Assembly: GCA_002049455.2 (NCBI GenBank)
Contig: KV918859.1
Coordinates: 173,783 to 237,782, forward strand
Direction: 5' to 3'
From: Porphyra umbilicalis
Lineage: Eukaryota; Rhodophyta; Bangiophyceae; Bangiales; Bangiaceae
DNA length: 64,000 bases
The first letter of the stretch is position 1. Every line of letters begins with the position of its first letter. Both the position numbers and the translations under genes were made by a program. Shown here one piece after another: positions 17,727-55,161 of the stretch. The notes beneath the pieces were generated by a model. That model did no database searches, had not been told where the DNA came from, and saw only the letters and a program-made list of their open reading frames with translations.

Positions 17727-17754
17727 CCCGATGGACTTTCGTTTCATTTTTTTG

Positions 17755-18302: not shown

Positions 18303-18408
18303 CTTATTGTTTTTCTCTTCGATGCAAAGTAGAATGACGCACTGTTTATTCCTGATGGAGAAACAAAGGAAATCCAAGCAGTGCACCGGCTAAAGGTATC
18401 AGAGATCA

Positions 18409-23891: not shown

Positions 23892-25692
23892 CCCAGACGT
23901 GGCCTCCGTCGAGCGCGAGACTCCGCCCGTCCCGACGGCGCCGGCTGAGTCCACGAGCGACAAGGGCACCATTGTGGACAGCATCATCGCGGGTGATACC
24001 CTTATGACAAACCTGCACCGCGCTATGGGCCAGCTACGTGACAAGGCGTACCGTGGTGCCTCTGCTGCGATGCAGACGCCGGAGGATGTCTGTATGTCGG
24101 AGGTGCTCAAGTCAGATGACCCGCGGGCAACATCTCCAGAGATGGACGCAGCATGCGAGTCTGAAGCGGATGGGCTAGTTTCACGTGGCGCATTTCGGCG
24201 GCGGCTGCGGACATCAGTGCCTCCCAATGCCAACGTCCTCGGCGGCCGGATGGTGAAGGTGATAAAGAGGGTCAACACGGCGGATGCATCCGCCAAGGCC
24301 CGCTTTGTCGCGCAGGGCAACACGGACAAGGCCAAGGCTTTCGTCGTCCACAACCTCTCGGCGTTGCGGCAGAGTTACACTAAGATCCTCGTGTCCACTA
24401 GGGCCGTGCTCGGGCTCCGTATCTTTTCCCACGACGTCAACCAGGCGTACCTCCAGAGCAAGGACAAGCTGTCGCGTGAGGTATTTGTACGACCTCGCGC
24501 GCGGGACGCCAGGTACTTTGGTGTCCGCGATGACGAAGTGCTTCAAGTACTACTTCCGCTGTATGGTCTCCCGGACGCGGGAGACTACTGGGATGTTACC
24601 GTACTGGACCACGTGGAGAACGAGCTGGGCATGGAACCGCTTGTCGGTGACCCGCGTCTCTTCGTCAAGGACGGTTCCAACGCACTACAAGGTCTCCTTG
24701 GCGGCTGTGTGGATGATTTCCTCATGGGCGGTGACACGCACTTCCAGACTCTCACCGAGAAGACGCTGCAGAGGTTCGAGTCCAAGCCGCGCGTATGGGA
24801 CAACATGGAGTTCATCGGCGTGTCAAACAAGACCGCACCCGGTCCTCCGAGAGTGCTCTCCATCGACCAGACGGGATACATCGATGCGGCGCGCAAGCTA
24901 CCGTTAAGCATCAGCTACGACAAGTTTGTGTCGGTGCGCGCTGCGTTCGCGTGGCTGGCGCATAGCCGCCCTGACCTGTGTTGCGCGATTAACCGTGCCG
25001 CGCAGGTGACAGCGTCTACATTCCGCGAGGAGCACATCAAGGAGCTGAACAAGGCCATCAAGCACGCAAACGCCACGAAGACGCTCTCCCTTATGTATGC
25101 CCCGCTGGGCAAGGACTATGCTGACGCCTCCTTTGCTTCCAATGACGACCTGTCATCCCAGCTGGGGTACATCGTACTTCTGTGTGATGGGCACTCGCGC
25201 TGTCACGTCATGACGTACTCAAGCAGGAAATCGAGACGCGTCGTCAAGAGCATCATGGCGGGGGAGGTCTACGTCTTTGCAGATGCGTTTGATGCCGCTT
25301 TTATCATCAAGCACGACCTCGAGCGCATCTACGATCAGCTCCTGCCGCTGGTTATGTTGACCGACTCCAAGCAGATGTTTGATGTTATCATCCGTGCCTC
25401 TCATACAACGGAGAAACGGCTGATGATTGACGCGGCGGCGGTACGCGAGGCGTACAAGCGCTACGAGATCTCCAATGTTGGCCTGGTGCGGTCCGAGCAC
25501 AACCCCGCGGATGGGCTGACAAAGCCGCAAATATGTGCGGCGCTAGACGTTACTCTCCGCACGGGCACGGACGTCAATTCGGTGGAGCAGTGGGTCACTC
25601 GGAACGAGACGATGGCGGACTCGGTGCCCGAGACCATGACGACGGCGGAACGGACGGATGGGCGCTCGGATGAGGAAGACCCGGGAGTGTGA
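23865..25692 (+). CDS. pol: Copia reverse transcriptase and RNase H segment of pol
   Basis: The frame is open to 25692, where its TGA lies within the first bases of the 3' LTR. RT motifs run in order: AKARFVAQGN, FSHDVNQAYLQSKD with the first catalytic Asp, LLPLYGLPDAGDYW, then GGCVDDFLMGG as the catalytic DD box (CVDD in place of copia YVDD). RNase H follows with KDYADASFASNDDLSSQLGY, IMAGEVYVFADAFDA, MLTDSKQMFDV and RSEHNPADGLTK, giving the expected acidic residues. It has no start of its own; it is the downstream part of gag-pol, in a different frame from the preceding segment. Coordinates mark where homology-like sequence resumes. Confidence 0.85.
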
Positions 25693-35900: not shown

Positions 35901-37594
35901 TCGTCTGTGGGGGGATGCCAAGGCCGGAAAGGAGTGGGCAGGCGTAGGCGTCGAAAGAGGAGCGGTTGGGGAGGCACAGCAAGGGAAGCGCGTCAACAAG
36001 GTTGGGGAGGCACAGCAAGGGAAGCGCGTCAGCAATCGCGCATGTCCAACTCTGCCTCTACGGCGCCTCTAACTGGGCCTGACGCCCTCGAGCGGGCCCA
36101 GTGGGACTGGGCGAGACGCGCCAAAAACCAACCCCCACCCCCCCCGGTCCCCACACACCCCCGCGGTCACCCCACGTACCTTGCCACACCCACTCGGTCC
36201 GACCAGGGCGAGCGTCTCCCCCCGCCGCAGCGTCGCGGAAAACCCGTCGAGGGCGCGCGCCCCCCCCCCCCCGCGTAGCCAAAACCGACGCCCTCCAGCG
36301 AGAGCTCCCCCCGGACAACGTCCAACACGCGCCCCGCCCCCGCATCCAGCGGGTCAATCCCTGACGCCCGGTCGATGAGCGCGTAGATGCGGGGCGCGGC
36401 CGCCCGCGCGGCCGCCATCGCATTCACGGCCGGGAGCGCGTGGCCCAAGCCCATGGACCCCGTCACGGTTGCAAAAAACACCGTGTACGTCGCCCCCGCC
36501 GACAGGTCCCCCGCCCGCACCAGCCGCGCGCCGTACCAAAACGCGAGCGCGTACGCCGCCTTGGTGACCGCCATCGTCACGCCGGCGCCGAGCCCCGCCA
36601 CGTGCCACCGCCGCTCCGCGTCGGCCGCCGCGTCGCGCAGGTGGCGGGTGTAGCGGGCGGCCTCGACCTCCTCCCCGCCAAACACCGCGACGGTGCGGAG
36701 GTGGCGGAGCGCCTCGGCCGCCACGGCGCCGGCAGTCGTGTAGGACGCTTGCGAGGTGGCCGTGGAGCGGCCGACGGAGCGCGCGACGGCGGCGGCCGAG
36801 CCAAACAACACGGGGACGGTCGCGAGGACGACGAGCGCGAGGCGCCACCCAACGACAAACGAGACGGTCAAGCCCGTCACAAAGGTCGACAAGTGCTGCG
36901 CGGCGTACGCGGCTTTGGCGCCCATGCCGACGACCATCACGTCGACGTCGGACGCGACGCGCGCGGCGAGCTCGCCCGCGTCGTGGTCATCCAGCCACGC
37001 CATCTCCTGCCGCAGGAGCGCCTGAAAGTAGTGCGAGCGGAGGCGCGCGCCCTGCGCCGTCGACGTGACAGTAAAGGAGGCAACTTGCACAAAGGCGGCG
37101 ATAAATGCGGTGGCGCCGAGGATGCCGAGCTTGGCCGCCAAGCGGGACAGCTCCTCCCTCGTGCCGACCGAGATGGTCCCCGCCCCCCCCGACGCGGCGG
37201 TGCCCGTCGTAAAGGCGTCGCCGAGGACGACAATGCCCGCGGGCGTGAGGGTGCCGTGGAGGAGCGCCGCCACGACGCCAATGACCATCAGCGCCACGTC
37301 GGTGCGGCTCGCAAAGCGGAAGAGGGCGGCGACGCTCACGGGGGGGAGGGGCGGCGACCGCGTCGACGATGCGCTGGCGCCGCCGGGCTTGGCGATGACG
37401 CCCGACGAGCGCGTCGAGCGGCTGCCCGTCACCAAGTCGCCACTGCTGCTGCTGCCGTCGGCCGCCGGGGGGGCGTCAGCGGGGGGGGCGACGCGCAGCG
37501 GCGGCACGTCGGCAGGGTCACTGACCGGCCGCAGCGCGCCGGTGGTCGCGGCGGGGGAACCCACCGACGCCATGGCGGCCGGCGGAGAGGGCAA
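32981..37594 (-). CDS. ABCB-type full ABC transporter (multidrug-resistance/P-glycoprotein-like)
   Basis: The order is TMD1-NBD1-TMD2-NBD2, the full-transporter plan; about 1,200 residues is near the family's usual 1,250-1,300. TMD1 lies in 37594-36300. NBD1 has Walker A GPSGCGK split by an intron right after the Lys (36179-35905, GTACGT..CACAG), then [25 protein letters not shown] and AHRLTTV. TMD2 spans about 35010-34120. A second intron runs from about 34121 (GTGCGTTG) to about 33857 (CGCACAG). NBD2 has [34 protein letters not shown] and AHRLSTV. The frame slips at C runs near 36260-36272, 35293-35299 and 34158-34163 (plus strand), probably base-call errors. It should export or move hydrophobic substrates with ATP; the substrate is unknown. 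Confidence 0.85.
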
Positions 37595-39718
37595 TGGGGG
37601 GGGCCTGCCGAGGGGCCGACCACAGCGGCGGCAGGCCGATGGAGGCGACGGGTGTGCAGCCGGCCTGCCGTGGAACCGAGGTGCACGCGGCGCTCACCGC
37701 CGAGGCACGCCGCCGGCACGCCGCCGGCAGCACCCACCGTTGAAATAGCACGAGCGCGTGCCGCCGCTGCCGCCGCCGCCGCCAGTCACGGCCACCGGCG
37801 GTGCGCCTCGTCCGCCCCCCCGGGAGGGGGGACCCAACGCGGCTGACCGTGTCCACGACCGCGACAGCCACCGGCGGAGGGCGACCGACCGACCAGCCGC
37901 TGCAACCAGCCGCCGCGACCAGCCGTCGCGGCGTGCCGAGACGGACGTCCCCAGCAGGGCGGTCGGCGACGCCGTACACGGCCTCTGCCGGCGGCGCGAC
38001 GCCGCACGTAGCGTCGGCGTCGGCCGCCCCGGTCAGCAGGCGGTGGCGGGGCCCTCGATATGGACTGCCCCCCTGCCACATCGGCCGCCGCCGCCGCATC
38101 CACGCACCCGCCCCGTGCCGCACCCGTGGCGCGCGGCGGGCGGTCCCCGTCGGCGACGCGGCCGCGCGGGCGCGGACGCTGTCACGCCGGTGCGGCGGTG
38201 GGGGCGGTCCGCGGGCGGCGACATTAGGGCCATGGGCGCGGAGGGGGGGGGGGGGGGGGGGAGGGGGGGGGGGCGTTCGCACCGACGCCGGCAGCTGGCG
38301 CACGTCCCGCACCGTCGTCGCACGTGTCTGTCTGGTGGCGAGAATGCCACCGCGCCCGCCGCCGGCGCCGCGTCAGCCGTCAGGGGCCGCCGCCGCGGGC
38401 GCGCCACCCGCCGCACGCGCCCGTCGCGGGGAGGGGCCGCCGCACGGGTTACCGCCGTGCGGGAGCGGCGGCCGGTGAGCCGCCGGCCCGCGCGGGTGTC
38501 TGTGCCGGTCGGGCACCCCCCGGCCGCCCCCCCGGATGTCTTGCCACGGCGACAGAGGGAAAGAACAGGCCGACACGCTGCGGCAGAGGTGCGGCTCCCC
38601 CCCGCCGCGCACAAAAACAGTGGAAGGAGCGACCGCGTGGGGTGTGGGCGGCGGCCGGCGGGAAGACGGGGGGGGGGGGGATGGCCGTACGGCGGGTTAT
38701 GGTTAGCACGGCGATCCAGCGGCGACCACGCCTCGTGGCAGGCGCGTCGGCCGGCCGGCCGCCGGCCGCCGCCCACCGGGCCGCTGTAGGATACACAAAG
38801 GAGGTGTGGGCAAGCGCGTCCAGGGTCAGCACCTCACGCAACGCGCGGGGAGCGCCGCAGGCGGTGCAGCCGGCCGTGGGGTCAGCGCCGTTGGAAAACG
38901 GCGGTCAGCCGGCGGCCCGTGCACAGCGGCCGGGGGGGGGTCTGGAGGGAGGGCGCCACCAGTGCGCTGACGACGCCCTGCCGGCCAGGCGGGTGCGCAC
39001 GGGGGCCGGCGCCGAAACGGCCACCCGTGAAGGGCGGGGGGGACGCGCTCTTGGACGCGTGACAGCGACCGTCGTAGGCGCCGGCCTGTGCCCGAGGGTG
39101 CCATCCAGAGATGCACCGCGAAGAACGGCAGGGGGGCGCTCCGTCTGCGACGTTTGGCCGCGGCGGGGGCAGCAGAGCCCAACGGCCAGAGGGATATGGA
39201 TGCGTCAGGATCGTGTTGCGGCGCTGACCTCCTCAACGGGGGTCGGAGCACAATTGCTGTTTTGGCTCATATGGACACAGCAGTGTTTTGAGGAACCCCA
39301 AGAAAGGGCTAATTGGGGTGGATTTTAGACGCAAATCATTGTACACTAAGTTCGTTTTGCGGTTGACTGGACCACATTACACTGTCAGAAGTAAGCAGCC
39401 GATACACTCCCCTATCATGGCCAGCTGCGGCGGCATAAAAAAATTGCATCGCTTCTGTCGTCCAGCGGGACACTCATTAGTCAGATGCATCGTGTCTTCC
39501 TTTTCCCTATTGGCTGTTCCTTTTTTGCTCAGCACTTTTTCGGCCTGGGGATGCACGCAAAGGAAACGTGGTTGCTGTATCACACAGTCCCACGATAAAG
39601 TTGAAACAAAAGCGGCATTGCGCACCTACAGTACCCTTTTTTTGGGGAGGTCAGCGCGGGGCACAGCAACGGCGGGCGGCCGCCACGCCGCGCGCGGGAG
39701 TTAGGAATCGCGCCGTTT
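37595..39718. other. GC-rich upstream region of the transporter
   Basis: Very GC-rich, with G runs at 38247-38275 and about 38668. Long frames exist on both strands but are Arg/Pro/Ala-rich with no recognisable domain, as expected from base composition alone. From about 39250 the composition becomes ordinary. I see no RNA gene or known element here. Confidence 0.4.
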
Positions 39719-39756
39719 AGCTTTCACGCGACATTCGCGTGAATATGCCGCGTGAA
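39719..39756 (+). repeat. Left terminal inverted repeat of the 15-kb element
   Basis: It reads AGCTTTCACGCGACATTCGC and continues GTGAATATGCCGCGTGAA. Inside it TTTCACGC and CGCGTGAA are inverse copies of one short motif. A run of about 16 G follows at 39762-39777. Confidence 0.8.
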
Positions 39757-40423
39757 TGCCGGGGGGGGGGGGGGGGGTCGGGCGCGCGCTCGGGGTGGGG
39801 CCGGATGCCGGAAGCGATTGTCTCAATCGCTATTCTGATTTCATTGATTCTACGTCATCCGTGTCGGATTCGAATCCAATCTGCATGGATCGAGTGTCCG
39901 CTGAAGTGGACCGATAAGAATCAGTCGATCTCGTGGTCGGGTGGCGGACGGCTTCTGGGCCCTCCCGATCTGCCGCGTCTTTCGTCGCGGCCAGCGTCTG
40001 GTCGTTTGTGGACCAGTCGCCATCCGCCACCATGGCGCCATCGTTGTCGGGGCGTCGTCTTCGCACCGCCTCGTCGCACACGATGCGATGGCGACGTCCG
40101 CCTCGTCCAGCGACACGGGGTCGTTACCCTAGTCCTACATGCAGTCCCGATTGGCGCAGTAGCAGGGGTGGCTGCACACGCTGGTACGCCGTGTGGCCCC
40201 GCTCTATGCTGTTCTTGTTTGCATCTGGGACTATTTTTCCGTGCGCTCCTGGCATCGTTTGTCAGGGCGAGAGGCGAGGGCTTGCGGAGATGATGGGCGC
40301 CCATACTGGAGATACCTCCTACATGATCATTCTTCATCCTGCTGACCGGGACGTCACGTGTTCTCCATGTACCTTTTTCCGCTGTGCTTTGCTTTCCCGT
40401 TCACTTCGACCTCCGCCGACAGA
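39757..40423. other. Left subterminal region of the 15-kb element
   Basis: A poly-G run is followed by roughly 600 bp without a supported gene. It would hold the promoter of ORF1. I see no tandem repeat corresponding to the right-hand 184-bp array. Confidence 0.4.
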
Positions 40424-42774
40424 TGGTGAGGGCCGGCATCGAGGTTGTGCGCGGCGCTCTCGGCGCGCCCGACGTGGCTGCCGTGTCGGCCGGCGGGCCC
40501 ATCGCGCCTCCGGCGCTCACCGTGCCTACCGTACCCGCCAGCATGCCCGATGGGGCCGCTGGGCCCGCGGAGCCCGCTGTGTCCGCGGTGCCCGCCGCGC
40601 CCGCGATACCCGCCGCGTCCGCGGTGCCCGCCGCGCCCGCGGTGCCCGCCGCGCCCGCGGTGCCCGCCGTGCCCGCCGTGCCCGCCGTGCCCGCGGTGCC
40701 CGCCGTGCCCGCCATGCCCGTCTTACCTGCTGTACCTGACGAGGAGTACATGCAGTTCTTTCGGTCTTTGGGCATTGGCGAGAACACCAAGGTCGCCTTC
40801 CTCGCCCGTCTGCTCGAGACCTTCCACGAGGTCGCCATGAAGCTGGACGAGCACCTGGCGCCAACGGGGGCCATCCTTCACGCTGCCATCAGTCGCATGT
40901 GCGAGGGCGACAGTCCCATGGACGCCCCTCAGCACCGGTGGATCCGTATCGTTGACAGGATTGGCTTCTTCTCGGACGAGGACGACCACGCAAGCCGCGT
41001 GATCAACCTCGGGCTTTCGTTTGCCTACCGGCAGAAGGAGCTTGACGCGGCCTCCAATGCCATTGCGCTCCGATTGGAGCGCACGCGCGCCGCTGTTGGT
41101 CGAGAGCGGTCGGAAAGCGCGGCACTCGAGCAAGAGGACACGGGCGCTGCAGCCCAGGAACAAGGCGACTCAGCGGATGCTGACGTAGTGCCGATTGGGG
41201 GTCTCGTCGTCCGCAACGATGGCTCGAGCAGACACATGGAGCCCAAGGCGTTGGGAGGTGGAGTGGGGAAGGCCGCCCGACCGGATGTGGACGGCCTTGA
41301 CGTTCCTCTCGGCGGTGTCGTCGTGCGCCGACATGTCGCCGGACAACCAGGCTCCGCTGGCCCTTGTGAGATCCCCGACGATGGCGTCCTTGTTGTTGCT
41401 CGACGCGACCCCCCCGGTGTTGCACCCTCCGCTGACGCAGCAGCCGCGGCTTCCACCGCGCCTAACGCCGCTCATGATGCACAACCGGCGGCGCTCGTAG
41501 AGATTGCTGGCGCCGCCAAGACGACTGACCGTGACACGCCACCCCCGCTGTTCAAGCCCTCCGACCAGTCGGTCGCCTGCGTGACGCGTGTGCTCGAGCT
41601 GATCCGGGAGCGCGATGATTGCAAGGACGTCATGCGAAAGCTACATGTCGATGGCCTGGTCTGTCTGGCTCGCCTTCACGGTGGGCAGGCTGTCGAAGGA
41701 GTGATCGCAGCCAGCAGCGTTGAGACGGATTGGGCGCCTGTGCGCACCTTGCTCAAGACGTGGTGGCCGTCATGGAGCATCCCGTCTGGGTCTCAACCGA
41801 TGACGCCCATCCCCGGGACTGCCGCGGCCGTCCTCAACCCTCTGCGGCGGGCGCAGTCGTCCAACTGGGTGATTAGCGTCGACATGGCGGTCATGAACGT
41901 CGCCATCCGCCAATGGTCGGGCAAGGCCGAGCGGTACTTCAAGGTGAAGGAGCTGACGAACACCGTCGACGTCGTGCGCATGGCCCCCTCGCTCAAGCCC
42001 CCAATGGCGACCATTATCGCCTCCATGCTGCTGGTTGGCACGTGGGACCCCGCTTTTTGCTCGCTTGTCACCCAACTGGCGACTGCCGGACGTGCCCGAA
42101 CCCCTCGTGCAGCGCCGCTTGAGATTGCCGCATGCCACAACTTTGAAGCGGCGGACGTGAGTGAGCCTGCTGTCTTGCGGTCGAGGCGAGCGGCCAACGG
42201 TGCCGCGGCCATGACCGCGCCGCTGCCTCATGCGCCCGGTCAGCGCTCCCAAGAGGAGCTCATGGCGGAGCGTCAAGCCGAAATCGACGCCCTCCTCGCG
42301 GCTGACAAGACCATCAACGCTACGGCCAGCCGCGCTCGCCGCATAGACGCTCGACGTCGCCAGTCGACAGCGTCTGGGTCGGGCGTAGATGGGTTGAGTG
42401 GGACTGGCCGGGCACGTCCGCGAGCCGCCCCGAGTCGGCGGAAGACGGGCGCGCCGCCAAGCTCGAGTCACTCACGGTTTGGCGCCACGCATGTTGGCGC
42501 TGCCCTTGAGCGCCACGGCGGCACTTACAGGGCGGTTGATACAATCAGTGTGAGCCAAGTGACGGCAGTTTTACCCCATCCTGACAAGGTAGTGAGTTCG
42601 CTCGACCCTGATCCTGTTGAGTCGTCTTTCGTGGGAGCCTCTGCTTCTGCCGTGTGCCCTCCCCGACCGGAGCTGAGCCCCGATGCGTCCTCATCTCTAT
42701 TTACTTCATTGCCAAATGCGGACGTACCATCGCTGGATAGCGAGGAGGAGGATGGGTCTGACGGAACTAAGTAA
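40424..42774 (+). CDS. ORF1 of the 15-kb element: large protein of unknown function
   Basis: 783 residues from ATG 40424 (the frame also has an ATG at 40385). Near the N-terminus lies a Val-Pro-Ala tandem repeat encoded at about 40540-40735 (VPAVPAVPA). Then comes a folded-looking segment (DEEYMQFFRSLGIGENTKVA, LLETFHEVAMKLDEHLAP). An Ala/Asp-rich linker containing two V(V)PIGGLVVR / VPLGGVVVR repeats follows, then a second folded part (ACVTRVLELIRERDDCKDVM, VISVDMAVMNVAIRQWSGKA), and a basic, Ser-rich tail. I recognise no family. It is convergent with the helicase gene, with only 14 bp between stop codons and an AATAAA at about 42774. A structural or DNA-binding accessory role is a guess. 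Confidence 0.6.
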
Positions 42775-42788
42775 TAAATGTAATATAG

Positions 42789-45767
42789 CTACAAACGTGG
42801 ACTGTCTCTATACAGTTGCAAAGCATCCGCGTCGGCCATCACACGGCTACCGCAAAAAGAACGCACGTGCATGCGCCTCTTGTCGGGCACCCGGCTCATT
42901 GCAGCCAACACCATGCCCGACCCAAAAGCCTCCCCTATATCCAACACCGCCTCCGACAAGGTCAAGCTCTGCGACCGGTGAACAGTGATGCCCCAGCCCA
43001 GGACAAAAGGAACTTGAACACGCACAGCAACAGCTCCCGGTCGTGATAGAATGCGAGACTCAAACTCGACTGGTGGACAACACACTTCCAACCAATCGGC
43101 ACCCGCCCCCCGCACCCCCTGCCTACCCGACCGAGTACCCTCCGTGAGCTCGTGGTCATCAAATCGAACGACGGGGGTCCCATCGGTCTCGTAGTCCACC
43201 AGGTGGCCAATGCTCCCATGGAAGAGGCCAAGACCTAGAAAGTGGTTGGACGTCAGCATGACGCGCGCACCGCGGCAATGCTCCACCCGCCGGGGAGCCA
43301 CAAAATCGATCAGAGCGGCATCACGTGCCTGCACGGAGACGTTGCCGAGGTTGGGCGAGGCCACGTCGCGGTCCCGGTTCGGGTCCTCCTTCACGTCATG
43401 GATGGCAATGGAGACAGTGGGTGGCGAGCCCGCGCAAAGCCGCCTCAAGCACGCTTGGTTGTGGTTGTCCACGTCTTCGTGTCGCGGCATAATGTGAAGC
43501 GCCTGGTACTGGAGCGTGTCATACGCTTCGTCCGACACGGACCGCTCGTCCATGAGCGCCTGCACAGCGTCGGTGCACCGCCCGAACCGAGCGTCGTGGA
43601 TTGCAGCGACAAAGTCCGGCTGGCCTTGGCGGTGCACGCGCGTCAGCTCCACAAAGCCGTCTCCGAACATCAATGGCCAGCAGTGGCCTGTGAATGCCAT
43701 CTTCCCAAACGGGGGGCTCAACTGCAGGAAATTCCCAAAGGTGTAGATGACGGCCGGCGGCTTGCCCCCCCGGGACTGTTGCAAAAGCTCGTGCATGACG
43801 TCGAAGTTGTCCGCGGGCACCATAGAGATCTCATCGATCATGAGCACCTCCACCTTGGCGAGTCGCCGTGCGATGGGCCGCCACCGGTCAAGTGCCAGCA
43901 GGCAAGCGGCTTCTTGGATGGGGTTGTCCGACTGCATCTTGTAGTCCTTGGTGAAGCCGAAAAACGAATGATACGTGACGCCCTTCGCCGTCTTCGCGGC
44001 GCTCCCGGTCGGCGCAACGACGACGACTGCACCGGTTCCCGGCAGCCGTCTGCGCACAAAGCCGTGAAACGAACGCAAGAATGAGGTCTTGCCAACCCCA
44101 GGCCCACCACTGACAAAAGTGCTCAACCCCCGATCAAACAGACGCTGGAAAACAGCAGTCCAAGAGCAGTCGGCAGCCATCCGCGTCAGCGGGCCTGGCG
44201 ACGGCGGCAGGCTGGCGTTTGACGAGCCACCACCGACCACATCGGCGCCTCTCGGAGGCGGGCAGGTGTCATTACCGGGGACGGCGTCGGCACCAGGAGC
44301 CCCATCGGCGCGGTCATCTCCGAGGCCGGTGGCCACCGCGAGTAAAGAGCCGCCCGCCTTGTCGAGCGACGCCCACGCTGCCTGCCGCTGAGCGCCAAGC
44401 GCAGCGTCGCGACGCAGGGCCTCCTCGTAGTCGTTCTGCTCCCACTGAGAAACCGAGTCTGCCACCATGCGGTGAATGCTCTGGAATGTAAACTGTCCCT
44501 GACCTGGGTCGCCGGGCCCCACCCAAGAAGGGTTCTTGCAGTCCGACGGGCCGCCCTTCTTGACGCACCCACGCGAGCCGCTGCCCCCGACGTTGGCCGA
44601 CTGGAAGCTCCGTCCTCCGCCCGAGCGACGCAAGCCGCCGGCGCCATTGTCAGGCACTCCAACCAAACAGGCGACTGCCCCACATGGGCAGGGTGAAGGG
44701 GAACGGTCGACGCCGCTTTGCCACGCGCCACGAGATGAAGACGGCGCCGACGCTGTCGCATTAGAAACTCCTCGGTCTGCTGACCCGTCGAGGTGGCAGC
44801 TGCGCTTGATACCGGGGCTAGGAGCTGGCTTCGGCGCCGCAAGAGCCCGCCCCACAGCACTTGCACACAGCGTCGAGGACGTGAGCGGGCGGCTCGGCAC
44901 GACCGCCGACGGTGTGGTGAAGCGGCCAACACGAGCGCGCTTGTGGACGGGAGACACAGCGGCGGGCGCCGCCGACGGCCAACGCAGCGGCGAGGGTGCC
45001 CGGGGGCCTGGCACCGACTCAAACTCTAACGGGGACCGGACCAAGGGTGCCGGCAGTGCTTGCTTCTCAGCGGGTGGCGCACTAGCTGGGGCAGTGGTTG
45101 CCACCAACCGCTGCATTGCCCCACCAGCGTCGTTAGCAAGCCACAGGTAGGCGTCTGTAGCGACCGAGAAGCTTGCCGCGACACATAGCGTAGACGCCGT
45201 CGTCTGCATCAACTGCACCGCACCACCAACGCCAGAGGTGTTGATCTCAAAGCAAGCCCGCGCTCCTCGACCAACGACGGCAAGCCAGGCAGCTGAGCCC
45301 ACCGTCGCAGAGACCGCCGCACTCGGCTGACCGATGACGCCAGCGGTCACAGCCGCAATCGCGTCGGGGTCGGTCAGCCAACACATCGCCTCCTCCGATG
45401 ACCCAAAGGAGTTGCAAGCCAGCACACTGCCAAGCTCCAATGCCAGTAGCTGCTGCGCGATGCTGCCAGCATCGGAGGCGCGAAGGAGTACCGACGTCAG
45501 AGGAGTGATGACAGCGAGCAATGGGCGCGAGCCCACCGCCGCACCGGCAGGGGGCATCTCCGAACCGGAGCGCGCCGCAAAGCCGAAAAGAGAGGGGGGG
45601 AGCGCAGGGGTATCACCGCTCAGGTGCCGTACCGCCGCGGAAGACAAACCAGTGCGGCGGTGGGGACGGCCAGGAAGACGAAGATGCCGTGGGACGGGGG
45701 GAGCGACCCGTCGACCACCCCCGTCCGCTACACAACACAAAGAGGCCCGTCGGTGGGGAATGCCCAT
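42789..45767 (-). CDS. PIF1-like superfamily 1 DNA helicase
   Basis: The C-terminal half of this 992-residue frame has the PIF1 motif set. Walker A SGGPGVGKTSFLR lies near residue 555, VVVVAPTGSAAKTAKGVTYH as motif Ia, VLMIDEISMV as Walker B near 640, GNFLQLSPPFGKM as motif III near 675, and GWGITVHRSQSLTLSEAVLD with AAMSRV as motifs V-VI near 922. Motif III has Asn where PIF1 proteins usually have Asp (GDFLQLPP). The first half is low in recognisable domains; two similar segments (EEAMCWLTD and TDAYLWLAND) recall viroplasmin/RNase H N-domain repeats, a weak resemblance. By family it unwinds DNA 5'-3' with ATP. No HUH nuclease motif accompanies it, so it is not a Helitron protein. The start is uncertain. 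Confidence 0.8.
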   Translation of the reverse strand: MGIPHRRASLCCVADGGGRRVAPPVPRHLRLPGRPHRRTGLSSAAVRHLSGDTPALPPSLFGFAARSGSEMPPAGAAVGSRPLLAVITPLTSVLLRASDAGSIAQQLLALELGSVLACNSFGSSEEAMCWLTDPDAIAAVTAGVIGQPSAAVSATVGSAAWLAVVGRGARACFEINTSGVGGAVQLMQTTASTLCVAASFSVATDAYLWLANDAGGAMQRLVATTAPASAPPAEKQALPAPLVRSPLEFESVPGPRAPSPLRWPSAAPAAVSPVHKRARVGRFTTPSAVVPSRPLTSSTLCASAVGRALAAPKPAPSPGIKRSCHLDGSADRGVSNATASAPSSSRGAWQSGVDRSPSPCPCGAVACLVGVPDNGAGGLRRSGGGRSFQSANVGGSGSRGCVKKGGPSDCKNPSWVGPGDPGQGQFTFQSIHRMVADSVSQWEQNDYEEALRRDAALGAQRQAAWASLDKAGGSLLAVATGLGDDRADGAPGADAVPGNDTCPPPRGADVVGGGSSNASLPPSPGPLTRMAADCSWTAVFQRLFDRGLSTFVSGGPGVGKTSFLRSFHGFVRRRLPGTGAVVVVAPTGSAAKTAKGVTYHSFFGFTKDYKMQSDNPIQEAACLLALDRWRPIARRLAKVEVLMIDEISMVPADNFDVMHELLQQSRGGKPPAVIYTFGNFLQLSPPFGKMAFTGHCWPLMFGDGFVELTRVHRQGQPDFVAAIHDARFGRCTDAVQALMDERSVSDEAYDTLQYQALHIMPRHEDVDNHNQACLRRLCAGSPPTVSIAIHDVKEDPNRDRDVASPNLGNVSVQARDAALIDFVAPRRVEHCRGARVMLTSNHFLGLGLFHGSIGHLVDYETDGTPVVRFDDHELTEGTRSGRQGVRGAGADWLEVCCPPVEFESRILSRPGAVAVRVQVPFVLGWGITVHRSQSLTLSEAVLDIGEAFGSGMVLAAMSRVPDKRRMHVRSFCGSRVMADADALQLYRDSPRL

Positions 45768-48348
45768 ATGGACAGGACGATCTCAAACGACCGAACACTC
45801 GTGCAAGCGAGATGGGCAGAAAGGGGGGGGCGGAGCACGACCAGAGCGTGCCAGTGCGACCCGGGGGGCGCCGATTAATGGCGCTCAATGTGCGTCCCCA
45901 GGGGGGGGTACAGAACCCCGAGAACGCCGGCCGCGCGGCCAACAACGGGCCGAAAGGGTGCTCAGCAAACCGCCCCAGAGACCTCATTTAGGGGGGTCGT
46001 CCTGGCCGGGCCAGACCCGCTGAGATTAACCCCAAGGCCAAGTGCAGGACTTACCAAGACACCACATGCCGACCCCATTGGTAAAACGCCGATGGTGAAC
46101 CCGTCAAAAAAAATATCTGCGGGCAAACGTAAAATCTGGCAGCCCTCAGATACGTTGAAAGCGACAAGCGGCATCGACCGCCGGGCCAGATGGGCTCTGC
46201 CAGAACCGCCGATCTGGCGCATGGCCCGATGTCAGGCGCACAGGGAGTTCAAACATGCTTTTTCCGAGTCACGAAGAACTCCGATTTTGAGCTCTTGTGG
46301 TTGAATCTATCGGTAAGATCTACTGTCGACGGAACTGTGGGTGGGTAAACGCTTTTCTCGACGTGACGCCCTCGCGGCCCAGCTGGACCTTGTGGGAGCT
46401 GTTACCCAACCGACGCTGCTTGCGCGTTCCTCGTGACACCAGGGGGCTCCTTGATCCGTGCAGTATCTAAATTGAATCCATGATCTTCTTCGCTTATGGA
46501 CCCGTCACGAGCTCTGTGGTCACAATACACAGCAGTTCGGCCACTGTAACATACTTGTTCATTGTGATAATCATGCAGACTACGGCGAGTGTGCCTTGGG
46601 AGGCGTCAGGAGAGGAGAGCGCACCCAGCGGAATCGGCTTCCTGTTGTGGCGGTCCCCTTTTTTGTCAAATTCCGCGCTCTGTGAAGCACGTCCATGTTA
46701 ACGCAGGCCTTTGTTGAAAAGTACCATGTTTGTGTGATCCTTTTCGAAGCCCATCGCCTTCGCCCAGTCAGAGCACCTCGATCTAGCGAAGGAGCTGTTT
46801 CCATACTCTATTGGGGGGGGGGTACAGGTTGCTGCTGGGGCGCCCGAACAGCTGCTTTCTATCGATGTGGGCTCTGCTGAGGGAGGGTGCTTGTCGCTCG
46901 CAAGTATGAGAAACGCTGCCTGTTGCGTTTGCTTGGGCGTCCTGGCTACTCCACCTGTTCCTCCTGCCGCACCTGGCATGGCGCAGTGACGCCCCCATCC
47001 GGCTGTGCTCACTGGGTAGCCGCACGTGTCGTGGCGCTCCCTCGTCCGCCGCTCCGACAGCACCATTGCGGTGTACTGTGACTGCAGCCAAACCAGCCCC
47101 CCCCCAGCACTTTCATGTCCAACGCCTGCACTTCAGACTGCCTGCCAGAAATGCGGTGTTGGTCGATGGTCCTGCACCTCATGCGAGCGGTGCCTAAACC
47201 ACGCCCACCACGCCGTGCCAGAATCCGCCAGTCCACACCCGCGTGGCGTGAAAGGCTTTTCTTGCAGTCACATTCCCACAACCCCATGAGCGTAGGTGCC
47301 GGCGCCAGTCGTGACCGACGCTGCTGACGGGTGCCATATGCCAGACGGTAGCCAACGCGGGGGCCACCGCCACGCAAGTAAACACCGTTTGCTACGGGAG
47401 GGCGTATGGCTCTGGGCCTGGGGCAGAGCAGGGGCAGGCGTAAGCCCGGGGAGGGCGCGCGGTGATAGGCGGGGCGGGTTCGATGACATGATTGCATGGG
47501 CTGTCAGACTAGGTGGGTTGTCCGCCGTGCGTGCACGGATGGCGATGCACCGGTCTGGGCAGGTTGTCACAGACGCCTCGGCCATCCACTCTCGCTGCAA
47601 AGACACAGCTGGCAACCTGAGGTACAGCTCGCTCTCACACTCTGGGTGGTTCCCCCGAAGTCCTTCCTCTGGAAGGTATCTTGGCTAGATATGAGGTGCG
47701 GCACAGAGCACCGGAGTCTCACCAATGCATAACCAGTCTGGCACTCATGAGTGCAAGCGATTGCTGGAGTGGGGCTTGTGTGAAGTGAGTCGATGTTACT
47801 ACAAACGGTGGCCCTACCCCAGCGCCCGCCACCCCTCCGCTTGCCGCTGACGTTGTCAACCGGGAGAGCCATTGCACGGACTCGTCGTGCAATGAGCTGG
47901 GTGCCGACCAGTGGTCTGGGCGGGCGGCCACCCGGTCGGCACTGTCACAGTCTTTTCGGCTGCCGTCGCTGAGCTCATCCTTTACCCCCTCGTGGTTATC
48001 CACGCCACTGCTACCGTGGCCGTCCCCCATGGCACATAAGCGACAACCGCCTCTGAAGCTTCTCCAACCCTTGTGAACTACCCCAGCCACAGTGTGCGTC
48101 TGTCCGGGGGCGTGTCACCGCATCACAGTGCGCTTACGATGTGGCCGCTCGGGGGTCTGTTGTTTGTTTAGGGTTTTGGATTGCACGTATGGGTCAAGGT
48201 GGTCTTACTGTTTGTACAATGCGCACAGAGCAAGGGCCAACACGAGATGATGATGAATGCACAACGCCTGCGGCTCCTAAGCACACCCAAACAATACACA
48301 CAACCACAAGCCTACTCCCTGCCAACACTGCACTCGCACAGAACGCCA
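45768..48348. other. Central non-coding region of the 15-kb element
   Basis: 2.6 kb between the helicase and the transposase/protease gene. Frames up to about 160 codons occur on both strands but have no domain and uneven composition. A plus-strand stretch near 47140-47190 has clustered Cys codons (CQKCG, CTSCERC) without a supporting frame. It probably holds the helicase promoter and the 3' end of the transposase transcript. Confidence 0.4.
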
Positions 48349-48999
48349 CTATTCCTCGACGGCCGTGCTCGAGCCGCCCATCGTGGGCAGAAGGCTGCAG
48401 GCATCCTCAGTCACCAAGCTGTCCACATACAGCATGGCGCTCACGCGCTGGCGCAAAACAGGCATGTCCTCTTGGCTAAAGCAAAGAGAAGCACCAAGCG
48501 AAAAGCAATCGGCCGCCGCCAAGACAAACACTCCACAGCTACCACCGTCAGACTGACGCGGCAGGCCAACGTCCATCACGCCCTCCCACTCCTCAATCTT
48601 CCATGACTGGGACACATCCTCGCCCAGGCGAGCCGCAACCTCGTCCGTCAGCCAGCGCCGCGCGGTCGACAAGATTGACGACGCCCCACCCCCGTGCATC
48701 GAGTCAAAGTACTGGAACCGCCGGGCCTGCAAGTCAATGACGACCAGCACCCAGTGCAAGTTGCCCACATTGACGGGCATCATGACCAGGTCCACGGCGC
48801 CAATGTTAAGACCGTTCTTGAAGCCCCACGTGCGAACGCCGTTGTAGTCATAAAAGCCAGCGCGCTCGATCAGGCGAGGAAAAAAGAAGGTGTTGAAAAC
48901 GTACGTCCTGGGCGCCAAGGTGCGCGCGGCCGTCCCGCCCACCGACGACGAGCACAGCAGCTTGGCCCGATGGTTGAGCAATGCCACAAACGAGTTCAT
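48349..48999 (-). CDS. Ulp1-like C48 SUMO-protease domain, continuing the transposase frame
   Basis: A 216-residue frame that continues the transposase frame directly after a single TGA (49000-49002). Its catalytic residues fit Ulp1/C48 cysteine peptidases: His82-Trp83 in VGNLHWVLVVIDL, Asp99 in FQYFDSM, Gln149 and Cys155 in PRQSDGGSCGVFVL. The domain's own N-terminal motif (RWLNDE, as in Ulp1 WLNDE) lies on the other side of the TGA, so the stop cuts one domain. The ATG right after the stop is a chance Met or a re-initiation site. By family it would remove SUMO-like modifiers; Zisupton-type transposases carry the same domain. The lone TGA suggests a recent nonsense change or readthrough. Confidence 0.75.
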   Translation of the reverse strand: MNSFVALLNHRAKLLCSSSVGGTAARTLAPRTYVFNTFFFPRLIERAGFYDYNGVRTWGFKNGLNIGAVDLVMMPVNVGNLHWVLVVIDLQARRFQYFDSMHGGGASSILSTARRWLTDEVAARLGEDVSQSWKIEEWEGVMDVGLPRQSDGGSCGVFVLAAADCFSLGASLCFSQEDMPVLRQRVSAMLYVDSLVTEDACSLLPTMGGSSTAVEE

Positions 49000-51900
49000 T
49001 CACTCGTCATTCAACCACCGCTCACCGACCAACAGCCGAAAGTCGGAGACTGTGAGCGTGATCTTCGCCTTGTTCGCCGTCCGCACGGGCGAGGATGGCG
49101 GGCGGTCCGCTACCAACGCCTCAACAGCCGCCGTATGCTCGTCACACAGCGGCTCCGTGCTCATCGGCATCCAACGTGGCCTGACCGACAAGCACTGCAT
49201 GGCCCCCACCGCGTCGAGGGCAGCGTCGTCGGGAGGATGCGCGGACCCGCCGTCGTCACCTTGCACGACATTGTCAACAGCAGCGGCAGCGCCATCGCCG
49301 ACTGCAGCCGCGGAAGGGCTTGGCGAGGCGCGCGGCGCAGGCGAGGTGATCTCCTCGGCCAAGTGCGTTGGCCAGCCAAGCTTGACGGCCAACGCATCCG
49401 CTGTGTCGCGGTGCCCGTCGTTGGCAATGGAATCTTGGCAGTCACAATCCGACCCCCGCTGACAATGACGGGAGAGTTGACTGTGGAAGAAGGGCGCCAA
49501 AGGGATGTGGTCGTTCTCCGCCTTGGGGTTGGCCGATGCCAACCGCTGCTGCTTGCGGATGTTCATCATAGCGATTTGCACCATCTTGTGCGTCATGTAC
49601 GTAGCCGGTTTCATATACGCGAGGCTCGTCCGGTTGGCCACCGCAATGGAGTGCGACACTTCAGCCGCCTGGGTTGCCACGCCGGCCGTGACTCCCAAGC
49701 TCTCATCCGGCATGTAGATCGGGGAGCAAGTGTGGGTGATTGAATGGGGGCGGTCCAGGATGCAGCGCACATTGTGCGCGCGCAGGATGGGACGCACGCG
49801 CCGCAGCGCGTTCTTGTCCAGCTTGCAAGCAACATCGTAAAAGATTACTTTAGGTAGTTGGGGGAACCGCTCCAGAACGATTGACAGCGCCTCCCCGACG
49901 CTCTCAGCACGAAACAGGCAGCGAAAGCCGAGCGTAATCACGTGCGGGCACACCACGTTGAATACACCTTGCGTGCTGCCGCACTTGATGGAGAACGCCT
50001 TGTTGCACGAGTCGCCGTCGCCCTCGACGTCCGCGGCATGCTTGTCCTTCCCCTTGTAGCCGACCCGCCGCTTGAGAGCCTCGCTGTCCTTGATGCCCGG
50101 CCGCACCCGCTGCAACCCGGGAAAGGACTCGAAACTCTTCAACGGGTTGTCCATGTCTGCGACGCTGGCGGCGGGCTTGGTGGCCAGCCACGCCGCGTAG
50201 TCGGTCGGCGTCGGTCGGCCACCCCACTTGCGGCAGTAGTCGGCGTTGACCCACCCCCGGTCGAGCGTCTCCTTCTTGTTGGCGGCGGTCGAGAAGAGCT
50301 CATCGATATCATGCTCCATGTCGACGGCTCGCAGCAGCGTCGTGCCCAAGGCGTAGCGGAAGTGAGGGTCATTGTCGATCTCATCAGCAAACCAGCCGAC
50401 AAAGTTGGTGAGGAACCCAATGCCGTCAACAGCGTCCGTCACGTCGCGCCACATGCCCGCGTCTTGGAGCCGCAATGAGTTGGCCATTAACCGCGCCGCC
50501 GCCTCGTTGTGTCCTTGAAACATCCCCGTCACGGTCTCGCCCAGCAGGGCTTGGAGAAAAGGACGGATGTGGAGCCACGCTCCGTCGTCACGCCTCGGGT
50601 AGTTGTCAAAGTCGGGCGCACAGTGGCCGACCCGGTCGCGCCACGAATCCGACGGGAGCTTGGCCGGGGTGCCCTTCCCGCCAAGCGTGAGGTTCCCATC
50701 CTCGTCCTTGCGCAGCTTGGCCTCGAGGCCGGTGCTCGGCGTTGTTCCCTCAGTCTCAGCGGTTGCGCCGCCATCGGACGTAGCGGCCGATGCGCCCGCC
50801 TTCCCCGCAGCACGTGTTGGTCCGGTAAGAGTCCCGCTCCTGTCCACCCCCGTGCCACCAGCCTTGGTGCCAAACGGGAAGAAGCGGAAAAACAGACGAG
50901 CAGCGGCGGTCTCGACGCAGGACCGGTCGTTCACGGAGATCGTCTTGTGCCACGCGTCCAGCAACAGCGTCTGCGAGGCCGTAAGTGCCACGGCGGAGCG
51001 GAGCACCTTGCTGATGGCGACGCGCAGCGGAGCGGACTGCACGACACACAGCATCGACGCCGCCATGTCGAGCACGGGAACCTCCTCCTCGTACCGGGCG
51101 GGGTTGGCATCGTCGTGGTCGGTGCAGACTAAGGCCTGCCCGTCGATGACGACAAACTCGGGATTAGGACCACAGATGGGGCAAACCGCGGCCTCGGCGG
51201 GGATCACAAACGTCCGCAACATGGCCGTCCCAAGTCTGACGACGTCTTGTCGCCGCAGCGCAAAGGAAAGCACGTCCGATGTTAGGTGCCGCGTCGCGGC
51301 CGTGTAGGTGGACCGCGCCGTAATGATGTAGGAGTAGAGCTTGTCGAGTAGTGCACGAGTGAGCACGACCCACCGGCGCTGCTTGTCTCGCCGCCGCGAG
51401 TTAAACAGAGCGTCCATGCTGCCTTCGTACTCCACCAGCCGCTGACATTCCGCTCCGTCGCACGCCCAGCGACCCACAAGCATCTGGGTAAAGATCACAG
51501 CGCAAAACACGATCAGGTCAATACATCACAAGCAGACAGCAACAGAGCAGAGAGTCAGAACGAACCCTGTTATCGGCGCGCATGCCACGGGAGGCCACAC
51601 TAGTGGCATGAGAAGAATGGTCACGGCATGCGATCACGCAAGGACAACTGGGCAGTGACCACGGCAACTCACCTCAATGACTGGCGCCGTAGGGTGATGC
51701 GTGTACAGCACAGCTCGCTCCTTCTTCACGACGTGACGGTCCTCCCGCATACGCCCACAGCTGCCGCAAAACCGCTCCACTGGTACAAACGTGCGCGGGT
51801 GAATCATCCCGAGCCGAACAGAGCGCTCCACGAGGTTGCTCATCACCTCCAAGTCGCTCGCCCGACTGCCGCCCGCACTCGAGCACCGCCCCGAAAAGAG

Positions 51901-53178
51901 CGCTCGCCAGTCGGCTGTCCGGGCCCAGACGGCCCCCGCCTTTATCTCACCCACGCAGGGCAAAAGGTTGCGGCGAACGCGAGCGGCCACAGTTGCCTCG
52001 GCCGCGTCGCCCGTCGAGCGCTCCGTGTCGCCGGGCTCCGACTCGATGCCAGCATCCTCGTCGTCGGGCCCGCGAGGCACCGTGGGACCGTCGACGACGG
52101 CGGCGGGCTTGTCCTTCGCGATCTTGGGGACTGGTGCCATTGCCGCGTCTGAGGCGGCGGCTGCCCGGCGCTCCGCGTTGGAAGGACGCGACAACACGAC
52201 GTGACCGCACCGCGCTCGAAATCGGCGACAGCTTGGGGCAATGCAAGTGGCCACCTGGCCTGCGGTGGACGTCACAAGCGCGAACACAGAGCGGTAAAGG
52301 ACCACCCGAAACCGCATGGGCCCGTACTGCTGCCGGCCGACGAAGTTGGCGGGGGTGGGGTCGAGGTGCATCCGTCGCCAAAACGTGGCGAACGGGATGC
52401 CGTTCTTGCTCAAACTTGTCCTCAAAGCCGTCGTGTGCTGGCATAGACAGCTTCGAGAGGAAGCCGACAGGAACAACGCGTTGTGCGTCCCAGAAAAACA
52501 CGAGCACAGGATACCACCGCGGTAGGAGCACCAGAGGATAGCAGCGTCCGCCTTGCCGCTACCGACGCGCAACAAAATGGCTCGCGACCGCGACTCAGGG
52601 TCCCCCACCATCACGGCACTCACCATACTGGCGTGCCTCCCGATGGGCGTCGACGACGGCAGCCCACAAGATCTACGCACGCAAGCGCTCAAGACCTCCA
52701 TCATGCGCGCGTCCACGGGGGGAGGAGGAGCACGATGCGACGGGGCACGACCCGGTGTGGCACGGAAGGACGAAAACGCGACGTCCACCACACCACCGTC
52801 ACCGCCCTCGTCGTCTTCCGCGAGTGACGGTCCAAGGGGAAGTGGCCGCGGGCGCTTCTCGACCCGTGCCCGCTCGCGAGGGACACGAGCACCAACTTGA
52901 GCCGGCGCCCGAGGTGAGGCCGACACCACCGCCCGTCGAACGCCGACGGCCTGGACGCGGGCACTCCAGGTCGGATCAGCGGGGCGAGACTCCGTGCCGG
53001 CCCCGCTGACGGCGACCGGGATGCCGAGGGCACCCGACGGCAAAGACGCCAGGCGGTCGACAAGACCGGGCAGGGCGACAGGGTCCCCGAGGTACGGCAG
53101 CACCACGGGAGCGTGGAAGCGCCGCTTGCGCGGCGGCCGCTCATCACCCATCTGCGAGAATCGAACGGAAGCTCGCAA
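49000..53178 (-). CDS. KDZ-superfamily transposase with N-terminal CxC/SWIM-like zinc clusters
   Basis: Exon 1 runs from 53178 (or ATG 53151) to 51673; an intron 51672-51484 (GTGAGT..ACCCAG) is removed; exon 2 runs 51483-49000. The join is phase 0, about 1,320 residues. Exon 1 has zinc clusters: CSCFSG..SCLCQH (CxC..CxH, SWIM-like), TCIAPSC..RCGH and FCGSCG. Exon 2 has the KDZ core, numbered in its open frame: Asp123 in CPICGPNPEFVVIDG, a conserved FSIKCGSTQGVFNVVCPHVI, Asp559 in VIFYDVACKLDKNAL, DRPHSITH near 586 and Glu617 in VATQAAEVSHS. These fit the expected acidic triad. It should cut and join the element's ends in the nucleus. The frame then runs into a Ulp1-like domain after one TGA. 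Confidence 0.8.
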
Positions 53179-53494
53179 GCAGCACCATCACCGGCACAAT
53201 CTCGGATGCGTTCGCCCGAGACGGGCCTGCACCGCGCGGCAGAGGGCAAAGCGAGGGAGAGGCCACAACGAAGGCAACGTACGGCGCCGCGTTGGCCACG
53301 GACACCGGCGAGGAAGAAGCCGGCCGACCGGACCCAGGTCGGCGTGGCCAGGACGAGGACCACGACGACGGGGCGAGCACGACCCGACGGCGCAGGCCCC
53401 TGAACCCAGCTGCAGACCAGCCGCGTACAGTGACCAGAACCGACAGTCCACGAAAACACAGCGAGCAGGCCCCCAAATGCAACAAACGGCCGCA

Positions 53495-54410
53495 CCGGCC
53501 AGAACAGGAGCGTGCTGGGGGTGCTCCAAAGGGGCCACAAACGCCTGTGAATGTTTTGACCGATCCCATTGGTCGGGGATCGGATGTATGCCGGCCACGC
53601 CGACCACTAAAAAGGGCGGTCCAAACAGGGGGCCCCCAAGCGCCGCCAACGGGGCCCCGGCAGGTACGGAGCCCGCCACCGCCCAAAAAAGGTGCGTGCT
53701 GGGGGTGCCCCAAAGGGGTCACAAACGCCTGTGAATGTTTTGACCGATCCCATTGGTCGGGGATCGGATGTATGCCGGCCACGCCGACCACTAAAAAGGG
53801 CGGTCCAAACAGGGGGCCCCCAAGCGCCGCCAACGGGGCCCCGGCAGGTACGGAGCCCGCCACCGCCCAAAAAAGGTGCGTGCTGGGGGTGCCCCAAAGG
53901 GGCCACAAACGCCTGTGAATGTTTTGTGCGATTTCATTGGGCAGGAGGCGGTCGGCAGCGGGCGATGCAGACCGCAAAAAAATGGCGGCGCCATGGCGGG
54001 CCCCCCAGCGCGGCCTGTCAGCCCCCCTGAGATACGGAGCCCGCCACCGGCCAAAACAGGTGCGTGCGGGGGGTGCTCCAAAGGGGCCACAATCTTCTGT
54101 GAATGTTTTGTGCGATTTCATTGGGCAGGAGGCGGTCGGCAGCGGGCGATGCAGACCGCAAAAAAATGGCGGCGCCATGGCGGGCCCCCCATCGAGTCCA
54201 GCTAGCCCCCCGGAGATATGGAGCCCGCCACCTGCCAAAACAGGTGCGTGCTGGGGGTGCCCCAAAGGGGCCACAAACGTGTGTGTATTGTTCCGTGCAT
54301 TTGATTGGTCAGGTGTCGCATTGCCCATTGTATCTCGTTGGTAGGTATCGTTTGAGGACCTTTGCGGCCCGTTTTTGACACGTCGGTCCCGCTGCTGGTG
54401 TCTGGTCGGA
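53495..54410 (-). repeat. Five tandem 184-bp units with CCAAT boxes, upstream of the transposase
   Basis: The anchor CGTGCTGGGGGTGCYCCAAAGG (given here in its first bases) starts at 53511, 53695, 53879, 54063 and 54247, always 184 bp apart. Each unit has ATTGG at the same place (53568, 53752, 53936, 54120, 54304), a CCAAT box when read in the direction of the transposase gene. Units 1-2 are nearly identical, 3-4 form a second subtype, and unit 5 is diverged. The array ends about 290 bp from the right terminal repeat. It may act as promoter or transposase-binding array. Confidence 0.85.
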
Positions 54411-54698
54411 CCAGTAGTGAGCCTCTTTCGTCCAGACATTGTCTGGACCCGGTCTCTCTCGTGCGCCTCTCAGCCTGTTTTAGCGCATTGACACGAGCAA
54501 TGTCGGTCTGACGGTGGGCCTGACGCGGCATTTTTTTGTGTCTCAAGCCCCCCTATGGGCACGATGTCTGAGCGGGCTGTTCGTGTCTGGCACGTATCCG
54601 GTTGACGGCCCTTGCATGGGCGTGTCGACAGGGGCTATTGCAGGGGGGCACCACAGGGCACGAGCTCTGGATGCTACCATGTGATTGGCGCATTCTGT

Positions 54699-54736
54699 TT
54701 CACGCGGGGTGTTAACGCGAATACGGCGTGAAAGCT
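54699..54736 (-). repeat. Right terminal inverted repeat of the 15-kb element
   Basis: Read inward from 54736 it is AGCTTTCACGCCGTATTCGC followed by GTTAACACCCCGCGTGAA. It matches the left repeat at 31 of 38 positions, with the outer 11 bases and the CCGCGTGAA block identical. Confidence 0.8.
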
Positions 54737-55161
54737 GTTGCGCCTGTTTCCTTCACGGCGCGGGGAGTGGCGGGTCAGACTCGGGCGCGGGGCGGGCGAT
54801 CCAGGCGGCGTCAGGACTTGCAGGCTGGCGGCGCTGTCGTCGACCCGACCGAACCGATCGATCGATCGAGTCTGCCTCCACAGCATGGCTGGCACCTTGC
54901 CATGGTCGCTCGCCGCGCCACCCCACGTTGCCGCAGCGGCGAAACGGCAGCTGCCGTCGCCGCCGTGCTACTGCTTGCTGGTGCCGCTAGGGTGTCGCCC
55001 CGCCCGTGTGCTTGCCCGTTGCCCGCGTCGGTTGCGCCGCGCCCGCGGGGGCGCCGCGCCCCGCTTGGACCGGCGGGCGCCCGCCGCCGCCGCGGGCCGC
55101 CCCCCCCGCCGCGCGGCGAGCGGGCGCGCGACACCCCCCCCCCGTCCCCCCGAGGCCAACC

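Follow-up and report, generated by a model that had tools for sequence, protein, structure and literature searches.

Within a 64,000-nt window of the Porphyra umbilicalis genome (C99:173783-237782, on contig KV918859.1), we analyzed a 15,060-bp transposable element that carries three genes: a spliced transposase gene combining a SWIM-like motif, a KDZ core and a Ulp1 domain, a PIF1-family helicase gene, and ORF1, which encodes a 783-residue protein (Table 1). The termini enclosing these three genes are bordered by 8-bp target duplications, and the trio has been co-inherited, under purifying selection, across numerous diverged copies. We therefore consider it highly probable that the element in the window belongs to a large KDZ (Zisupton-like) family whose core set is a SWIM-KDZ-Ulp1 transposase, a PIF1 helicase and ORF1. 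The genome searched was the P. umbilicalis assembly (83.8 Mb, 665 contigs), in which C99 denotes the window's copy and the other C-numbers denote contigs bearing related copies. The plastid contig of this assembly carries rbcL, rbcS and a cbbX-like frame side by side (gene names assigned by eye), and the best PDB matches of rbcL, 8bdb followed by 1bwv, come from the red algae Griffithsia and Galdieria, in keeping with a red-algal host. The genome searches give minimum counts, with the best 54 of 278 candidates scored in one search and 46 of 4721 in another.

The initial annotation had counted four genes at this locus, with Ulp1 standing apart from KDZ, but only three are present. In the window copy, the Ulp1 frame continues the KDZ frame beyond a single in-frame TGA (49002-49000), and the two domains share one open frame in C162, C200, C145, C71, C51, C32, C164 and C356; a separate Ulp1 gene was rejected on these grounds. 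Because of the TGA, the window copy probably cannot make a full transposase, although it may be mobilized in trans. The KDZ domain (PF18758) was matched by eight of nine aligned members at E ≤ 0.1 (best 2.6e-5), and candidate acidic residues, presumably catalytic, fall in the FYDVAC, ILDRPH and AAEVS blocks, the first D being absent from C32. Exon 1 has no Pfam match; its SWIM-like CxC...CxH motif was recognized by eye, as were invariant cysteines of the transposase, and the C34 relative carries the same motif.

The helicase frame matches the Pfam families AAA_30 and PIF1, and its profile matches PIF1 helicases in the PDB (best 1.9e-29). The Walker A, DE, motif III, TVHRSQ and SRV motifs are preserved, with single substitutions, in all eight aligned copies. 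ORF1 (40423-42774, plus strand) converges on the helicase gene (45557-42789, minus strand), with 14 bp between the two stop codons. Its product matches nothing in Pfam (best 0.17-0.3) or the PDB (best E 0.14), and no relatives of ORF1 or the transposase were confirmed in IMG/VR. At about codons 252-322 of the aligned ORF1 sequences there are P-x-G-G-x-V-V-R-like repeats, three in four of six copies, two in C51 and a single one in C145; after shuffling, a count of three was reached in 0-1 of 500 sequences. One might speculate that these di-glycine motifs are a substrate of the Ulp1 domain. Frames resembling the ORF1 N-terminus (34-38% identity over about 85 aa) also occur with no KDZ match near them, at C55:2108, C246:42978, C7:230982, C140:3655, C457:11831 and C31:31135.

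Table 1. Features of the element and its flanks, in window coordinates.
Feature	Position	Strand	Remarks
Whole element	39698..54757		15,060 bp; ends conserved between copies, with target duplications
Left copy of 8-bp target duplication	39690..39697		GCGCGCGG; 7/8 match to right copy
Right copy of 8-bp target duplication	54758..54765		GCGCGGGG
Left terminus	39698..39718	+	Starts GAGTTAGGAA
Left subterminal palindrome	39719..39760	+	Includes the left arm of the initial annotation (39719-39756); dyad halves co-vary
G17 tract	39761..39777	+	Just inside the left end
ORF1	40423..42774	+	783 aa; N-terminal domain at about residues 97-217, three P-x-G-G-x-V-V-R-like motifs, conserved C-terminal half
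PIF1-family helicase	42789..45557	-	Conserved Met to stop; open frame from 45782; Pfam PF13604, PF05970
Transposase exon 2	48349..51483	-	Cys clusters, KDZ core, C-terminal Ulp1 (C48) domain; in-frame TGA 49002-49000
Transposase intron	51484..51672	-	189 bp, phase 0, GT...AG; splice dinucleotides identically placed in 11/11 copies compared
Transposase exon 1	51673..53151	-	SWIM-like CxC...CxH motif; start codon assumed
Subterminal tandem array	53493..54279	+	184-bp unit, core GCCCCAAAGGGGCCACAAA in each (0-2 mismatches)
Right subterminal arm	54699..54736	-	Right arm of the initial annotation
Right terminus	54737..54757	-	5'-CGTGAAGGAAAC on the minus strand

That the three genes belong together is supported by their co-occurrence across the genome. 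After pieces were merged, we recovered 48 KDZ loci, 37 of them at least 44% identical to the window's and 11 more distant. The co-occurrence table drew on 58 of 58, 43 of 62 and 49 of 72 rows from three genome searches; the rows omitted were extra pieces of loci already entered or ORF1-domain loci without a KDZ match. A helicase gene lies downstream on the same strand within 25 kb at 36 of the 37 related loci, within 7.7 kb at 34 of these 36, against a chance expectation of 0.006 helicases per KDZ locus. ORF1 is also present, convergent to the helicase, at 34 of the 37, and all three genes keep one order, even among loci whose transposase identity falls to about 47-51%. Moreover, the identities rise together, with a Spearman coefficient of 0.73 between transposase and helicase (n = 36) and 0.54 between transposase and ORF1 (n = 34).

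The substitution patterns of the three genes are also alike. Over 15 pairs from six copies, the ratio of nonsynonymous to synonymous substitution rates (dN/dS) was 0.15-0.20 for the transposase, 0.23-0.32 for the helicase and 0.27-0.39 for ORF1, and in the three closest pairs dS was 0.61-0.67, 0.48-0.60 and 0.46-0.65. These ratios place each of the three genes under purifying selection, and the dS values of the closest pairs are similar. The gene trees have two splits in common, each with a support of 1.000.

Beyond the related loci, a PIF1 frame lies within 13 kb at six of the 11 distant KDZ loci (C342 twice, C24, C172, C230 and C450), where about 0.4 would be expected by chance from the 125 genomic PIF1 matches. 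C342, C24 and C172 also have a domain resembling the ORF1 N-terminus (27-32% identity, E 1e-4 to 3e-11) on the far side of PIF1, and the transposase gene there is inverted. The PIF1 frame near C155b is part of the main C155 element.

The limits of the element were placed by comparing copies. The initial annotation had taken two 38-bp inverted repeats as termini that exactly enclose the genes. These arms (39719-39756 and 54699-54736) do exist, are inverted and 82% complementary, and have the coding regions between them, but they are subterminal. In the copy alignment, similarity extends 21 bp beyond each arm and stops at 39698 and 54757, precisely where the 8-bp duplications start; thus, the arms were rejected as termini, and the true ends lie 21 bp farther out. 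Terminal inverted repeats are present, both as the 38-bp arms and as the GAGTTAGGAA / CGTGAAGGAA ends, with the outermost 21 bp only partly inverted-repeat. The window's own duplication matches at seven of eight positions (GCGCGCGG vs GCGCGGGG).

We tested target duplications across the family with the left end defined as GAG[G/T/A]TAGGAA and the right end as CGTGAAGGAA, allowing up to two mismatches in each and keeping the best of 1-12 candidate end pairs per element. End pairs were obtained in 21 of 25 elements, all except C164, C13, C32 and C51. Identical 8-bp flanks were found in 17 of them, 7/8 matches in three (the window, C71b and C89n) and a 5/8 match in C155, whose left end was not properly located. 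In C71, the duplication was read at the right end and then matched exactly at the left end. Conversely, when ends of different elements were paired in a swapped-flank control, none of 420 combinations reached 7/8 or better. A left end at C32 (106692) was rejected as the end of the gene-bearing element, as it belongs to a copy of N1, a non-autonomous family described below; C32 was scored as unresolved.

The ends themselves recur widely. Searching the assembly found 25 matches to the left end and 18 to the right. A stricter left pattern, GAGDTAGGAANTGC, from which the window's own end deviates, has 44 genome matches, compared with none for its backwards control. At C91, C129, C143, C148, C223, C42 and C51, it has the expected orientation and precedes ORF1 by 0.8-1.2 kb. 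A direct search for inverted ends in C34 found none, and these were located later through the terminal motif. In all, eight of 13 gene-bearing elements have located ends and a duplication around ORF1, helicase and transposase (seven at 8/8, the window at 7/8). Taken together, the genome-wide co-occurrence and the target duplications with their swapped-flank control exclude chance. The initial annotation's view of one mobile unit carrying KDZ, Ulp1, PIF1 and a large protein is thus upheld by these eight elements and by the trio at 34 of 37 loci; the search for further copies that it had suggested shows the same ends and gene set recurring, with a target duplication of 8 bp.

Copies of the ends without helicase or ORF1, which the initial annotation had named as evidence against a single unit, do occur. 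One such group is N1, a rearranged, non-autonomous family of 3.45-kb elements that shares these ends and whose closest gene-bearing relative is C42 (76-86% identical in pieces). Its copies are 94-99% identical and have exact duplications, which indicates recent movement. C1, at 5.5 kb, retains part of ORF1, has an exact duplication and carries an insertion at the left end. Both look like derivatives mobilized in trans and do not outweigh the co-inheritance of the trio. Long gene-less copies of the ends (C341, C238, C71b and C32a) were considered as another autonomous form and rejected, as they are N1 copies split by insertions of 11-16 kb (C341:47676-59621, C238:1187-17055, C71:132284-143816 and C32:74332-85621). 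At C135:10000-20121, a gene-bearing KDZ element seems to harbor an N1 copy (15354-18740) in the stretch separating ORF1 from the element's left end at 20121.

The ends also carry conserved non-coding features. The dyad in the left arm comprises 10 base pairs; across ten copies, 83% of cells pair, and five of the ten pairs have changed on both sides. Its covariation score was reached by none of 500 shuffles and the number of such pairs by 25 of 500, and slid versions scored far lower. In DNA, this pattern is as consistent with a symmetric site for protein binding as with a hairpin. Near the opposite end, the tandem array lies between the transposase and the right terminus and contains five matches to GCCCCAAAGGGGCCACAAA at up to two mismatches, with none expected. 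Comparable arrays have units of 183 bp in C162, 185 bp in N1, 185 bp in C145 and 157 bp in C34.

Next to the left-arm palindrome is a one-sided G-tract. Of 29 left ends, 28 have eight or more consecutive G starting at offset 60-78 (16-17 G in 18 of the 28), whereas no G or C run of at least eight was found within the first 150 nt of 23 right ends. With quadruplexes allowed, ViennaRNA predicted one in each of ten left ends tried, using RNA parameters, although not at the usual place in C5n. The tract is a plausible substrate for a PIF1 helicase. The alternative, that it is a mutational hitch-hiker, an ancestral homopolymer kept long by slippage and not a helicase target, is a serious one that we regard as quite possible, if short of probable. 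Such runs are frequent in the genome: the window outside the element contains 31 G or C runs of at least eight in 48,926 nt. Moreover, many of the 29 left ends are closely related; about half are N1-type copies and hence not independent. Against slippage alone, the tract keeps its position and strand in C34, C12, C136 and C71, even though only about 38-43 of their first 62 nt agree with the window, and it is missing from the right ends.

Our results support a model in which the helicase and ORF1 look like core parts of the element and not cargo, because they are kept with the transposase in copy after copy, show similar selection and largely agreeing trees, and reappear, as PIF1 with an ORF1-like domain, at distant loci. 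Several observations nonetheless weigh against this model. C312 has neither helicase nor ORF1, and C257 and C442 lack an ORF1 match, C442 lying at a contig start; several of the 11 distant KDZ loci, such as C104 and C154, have no PIF1 nearby. The third split of the trees disagrees at lower support (transposase C99+C162, 0.597; helicase C162+C200, 0.932; ORF1 C162+C200, 0.466), so that some exchange between copies is possible. One end is not located, or is not the element's own, in five of 13 gene-bearing elements (C155, C164, C13, C51 and C32). The window protein scored 24.4 bits for the KDZ Pfam family, compared with a cut-off of 26.6, and 26.9 in the genome scan. In the left end of C5n, the G-rich stretch is interrupted by T and A. 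Finally, the non-autonomous copies show only that the ends can be mobilized in trans, not that helicase or ORF1 is needed.

A different explanation is that a KDZ transposon carries helicase and ORF1 as passive cargo, captured from the host or from other elements, as with the TET/JBP genes in fungi. Accessory genes are indeed described on KDZ elements of fungi and brown algae in the available portions of two reports (PMC12477816, PMC12730594), and the 125 PIF1 matches in the P. umbilicalis genome mostly lie outside the KDZ family of the window. Yet passive carriage sits poorly with a trio that keeps its order at 34 of 37 loci while transposase identity falls to about 47-51%, with purifying selection on both genes, and with the presence of helicase and ORF1-like domain in a rearranged distant lineage, and we regard it as improbable. 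That two neighboring or nested elements are involved, a KDZ transposon and a separate helicase/ORF1 element such as a Helitron relative, is scarcely credible: nested insertions are common in the family (C341, C238, C71 and C32) and PIF1 helicases are also part of Helitrons in the accessible text of PMC12730594 and PMC6431247, but a single end pair with its duplication encloses the trio in eight located elements with unrelated flanks, and the Pfam matches of the five frames scanned include no Helitron Rep domain. The first 16 of the 125 genomic PIF1 matches all lie in frames of 796-1866 aa and reach 187-208 bits, much higher than the helicases of the KDZ elements; these high-scoring frames are possibly Helitron helicases.

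The family resembles known Zisupton/KDZ elements in its KDZ catalytic region (PF18758), terminal inverted similarity, 8-bp duplications, putative zinc-type Cys clusters and large size. It differs from them in its constant PIF1 helicase and ORF1, its SWIM-KDZ-Ulp1 transposase, its left-end G-tract and its subterminal arrays of 157-185 bp. In the excerpts available, Zisupton makes 8-bp target duplications (PMC12730594), as does Cryptococcus KDZ1, an element of about 11 kb (PMC12810828). Membership in Kyakuja is unlikely, given the 7-bp duplications and missing inverted ends described for that group in the same partial source (PMC12730594). The initial annotation had proposed a much larger form of KDZ element, but size alone is not new, since KDZ elements of 9-31 kb are in print (PMC12810828, PMC12477816, both consulted as partial text). 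The giant elements of Ectocarpus (up to 30.3 kb) and Chlamydomonas (up to 31.7 kb) are similar in that they span 10-31.7 kb and carry extra genes; these known accessory genes are, however, mostly of unknown function, and no PIF1 is named among them in the available part of that report, the comparison being by description only (PMC12477816). No helicase-bearing KDZ element turned up in searches of openly licensed literature, a scope that does not include the original Zisupton and KDZ papers. Within that scope, what appears new in the window family is the PIF1 helicase and ORF1 as constant partners of KDZ, together with the one-sided G-tract at the left end.

Helitrons carry a PIF1-family helicase, use an HUH Rep protein and are not known to make target duplications. 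The element shares the PIF1-family helicase with them but differs in its KDZ transposase, inverted ends and 8-bp duplications, and no HUH Rep appeared among the Pfam matches of the five frames. Likewise, the five long frames scanned gave no Pfam match to the DNA polymerase B or integrase of Polinton/Maverick elements. Elsewhere in the window, we observed a copia-type reverse transcriptase (RVT_2, 5.4e-10) at 23791-25689 and, on the minus strand, a JmjC-domain frame (2.6e-18) at 11744-12844 and ABC transporter frames (ABC_tran 1.3e-19, ABC_membrane 3.4e-55) at 33745-37693, the latter two being probable host genes.

How the three proteins might act together can be outlined from their families and from the features of the ends. 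The transposase may bind the subterminal palindromes, and perhaps the core of the tandem array too, and would cut and join with an 8-bp stagger through DDE-type chemistry of the KDZ core, as related families suggest. Its Ulp1 domain could contribute a desumoylating or processing activity, and ORF1 would be a partner of the transposase or the helicase. PIF1 helicases unwind DNA in the 5'-3' direction and remove G-quadruplexes. The helicase might thus open or clear DNA for the transposition complex, or for replication or repair of the element, with the left-end G-tract as its likely target. In our view, its most likely role is to support either the assembly of the transposition complex or DNA replication or repair across the ends of the element. 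Helicase and transposase may thus cooperate, as the initial annotation had supposed, and the link to replication that it raised as a possibility is conceivable too. More specifically, but only as a tentative and rather doubtful proposal, the element could be a helicase-dependent, inverted-end DDE transposon in which its own PIF1, acting on a strand-specific, quadruplex-prone tract at one end, gives transposition a polarity, for example by strand displacement or replication from the left end (copying and not purely cut-and-paste), with ORF1 as a third obligatory partner and possibly a Ulp1 substrate.

Eukaryotic DDE transposons are usually thought to need the transposase alone. Here, dozens of diverged copies, along with a rearranged sister lineage, have kept a replicative helicase and a third protein beside the transposase, which points to transposition machinery with additional components and suggests that this type of transposon depends on a helicase of its own for movement or copying. 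The G-tract, being confined to one end, connects the helicase with that end in a way open to direct experimental test, and the non-autonomous copies that moved recently are ready-made substrates for an assay.

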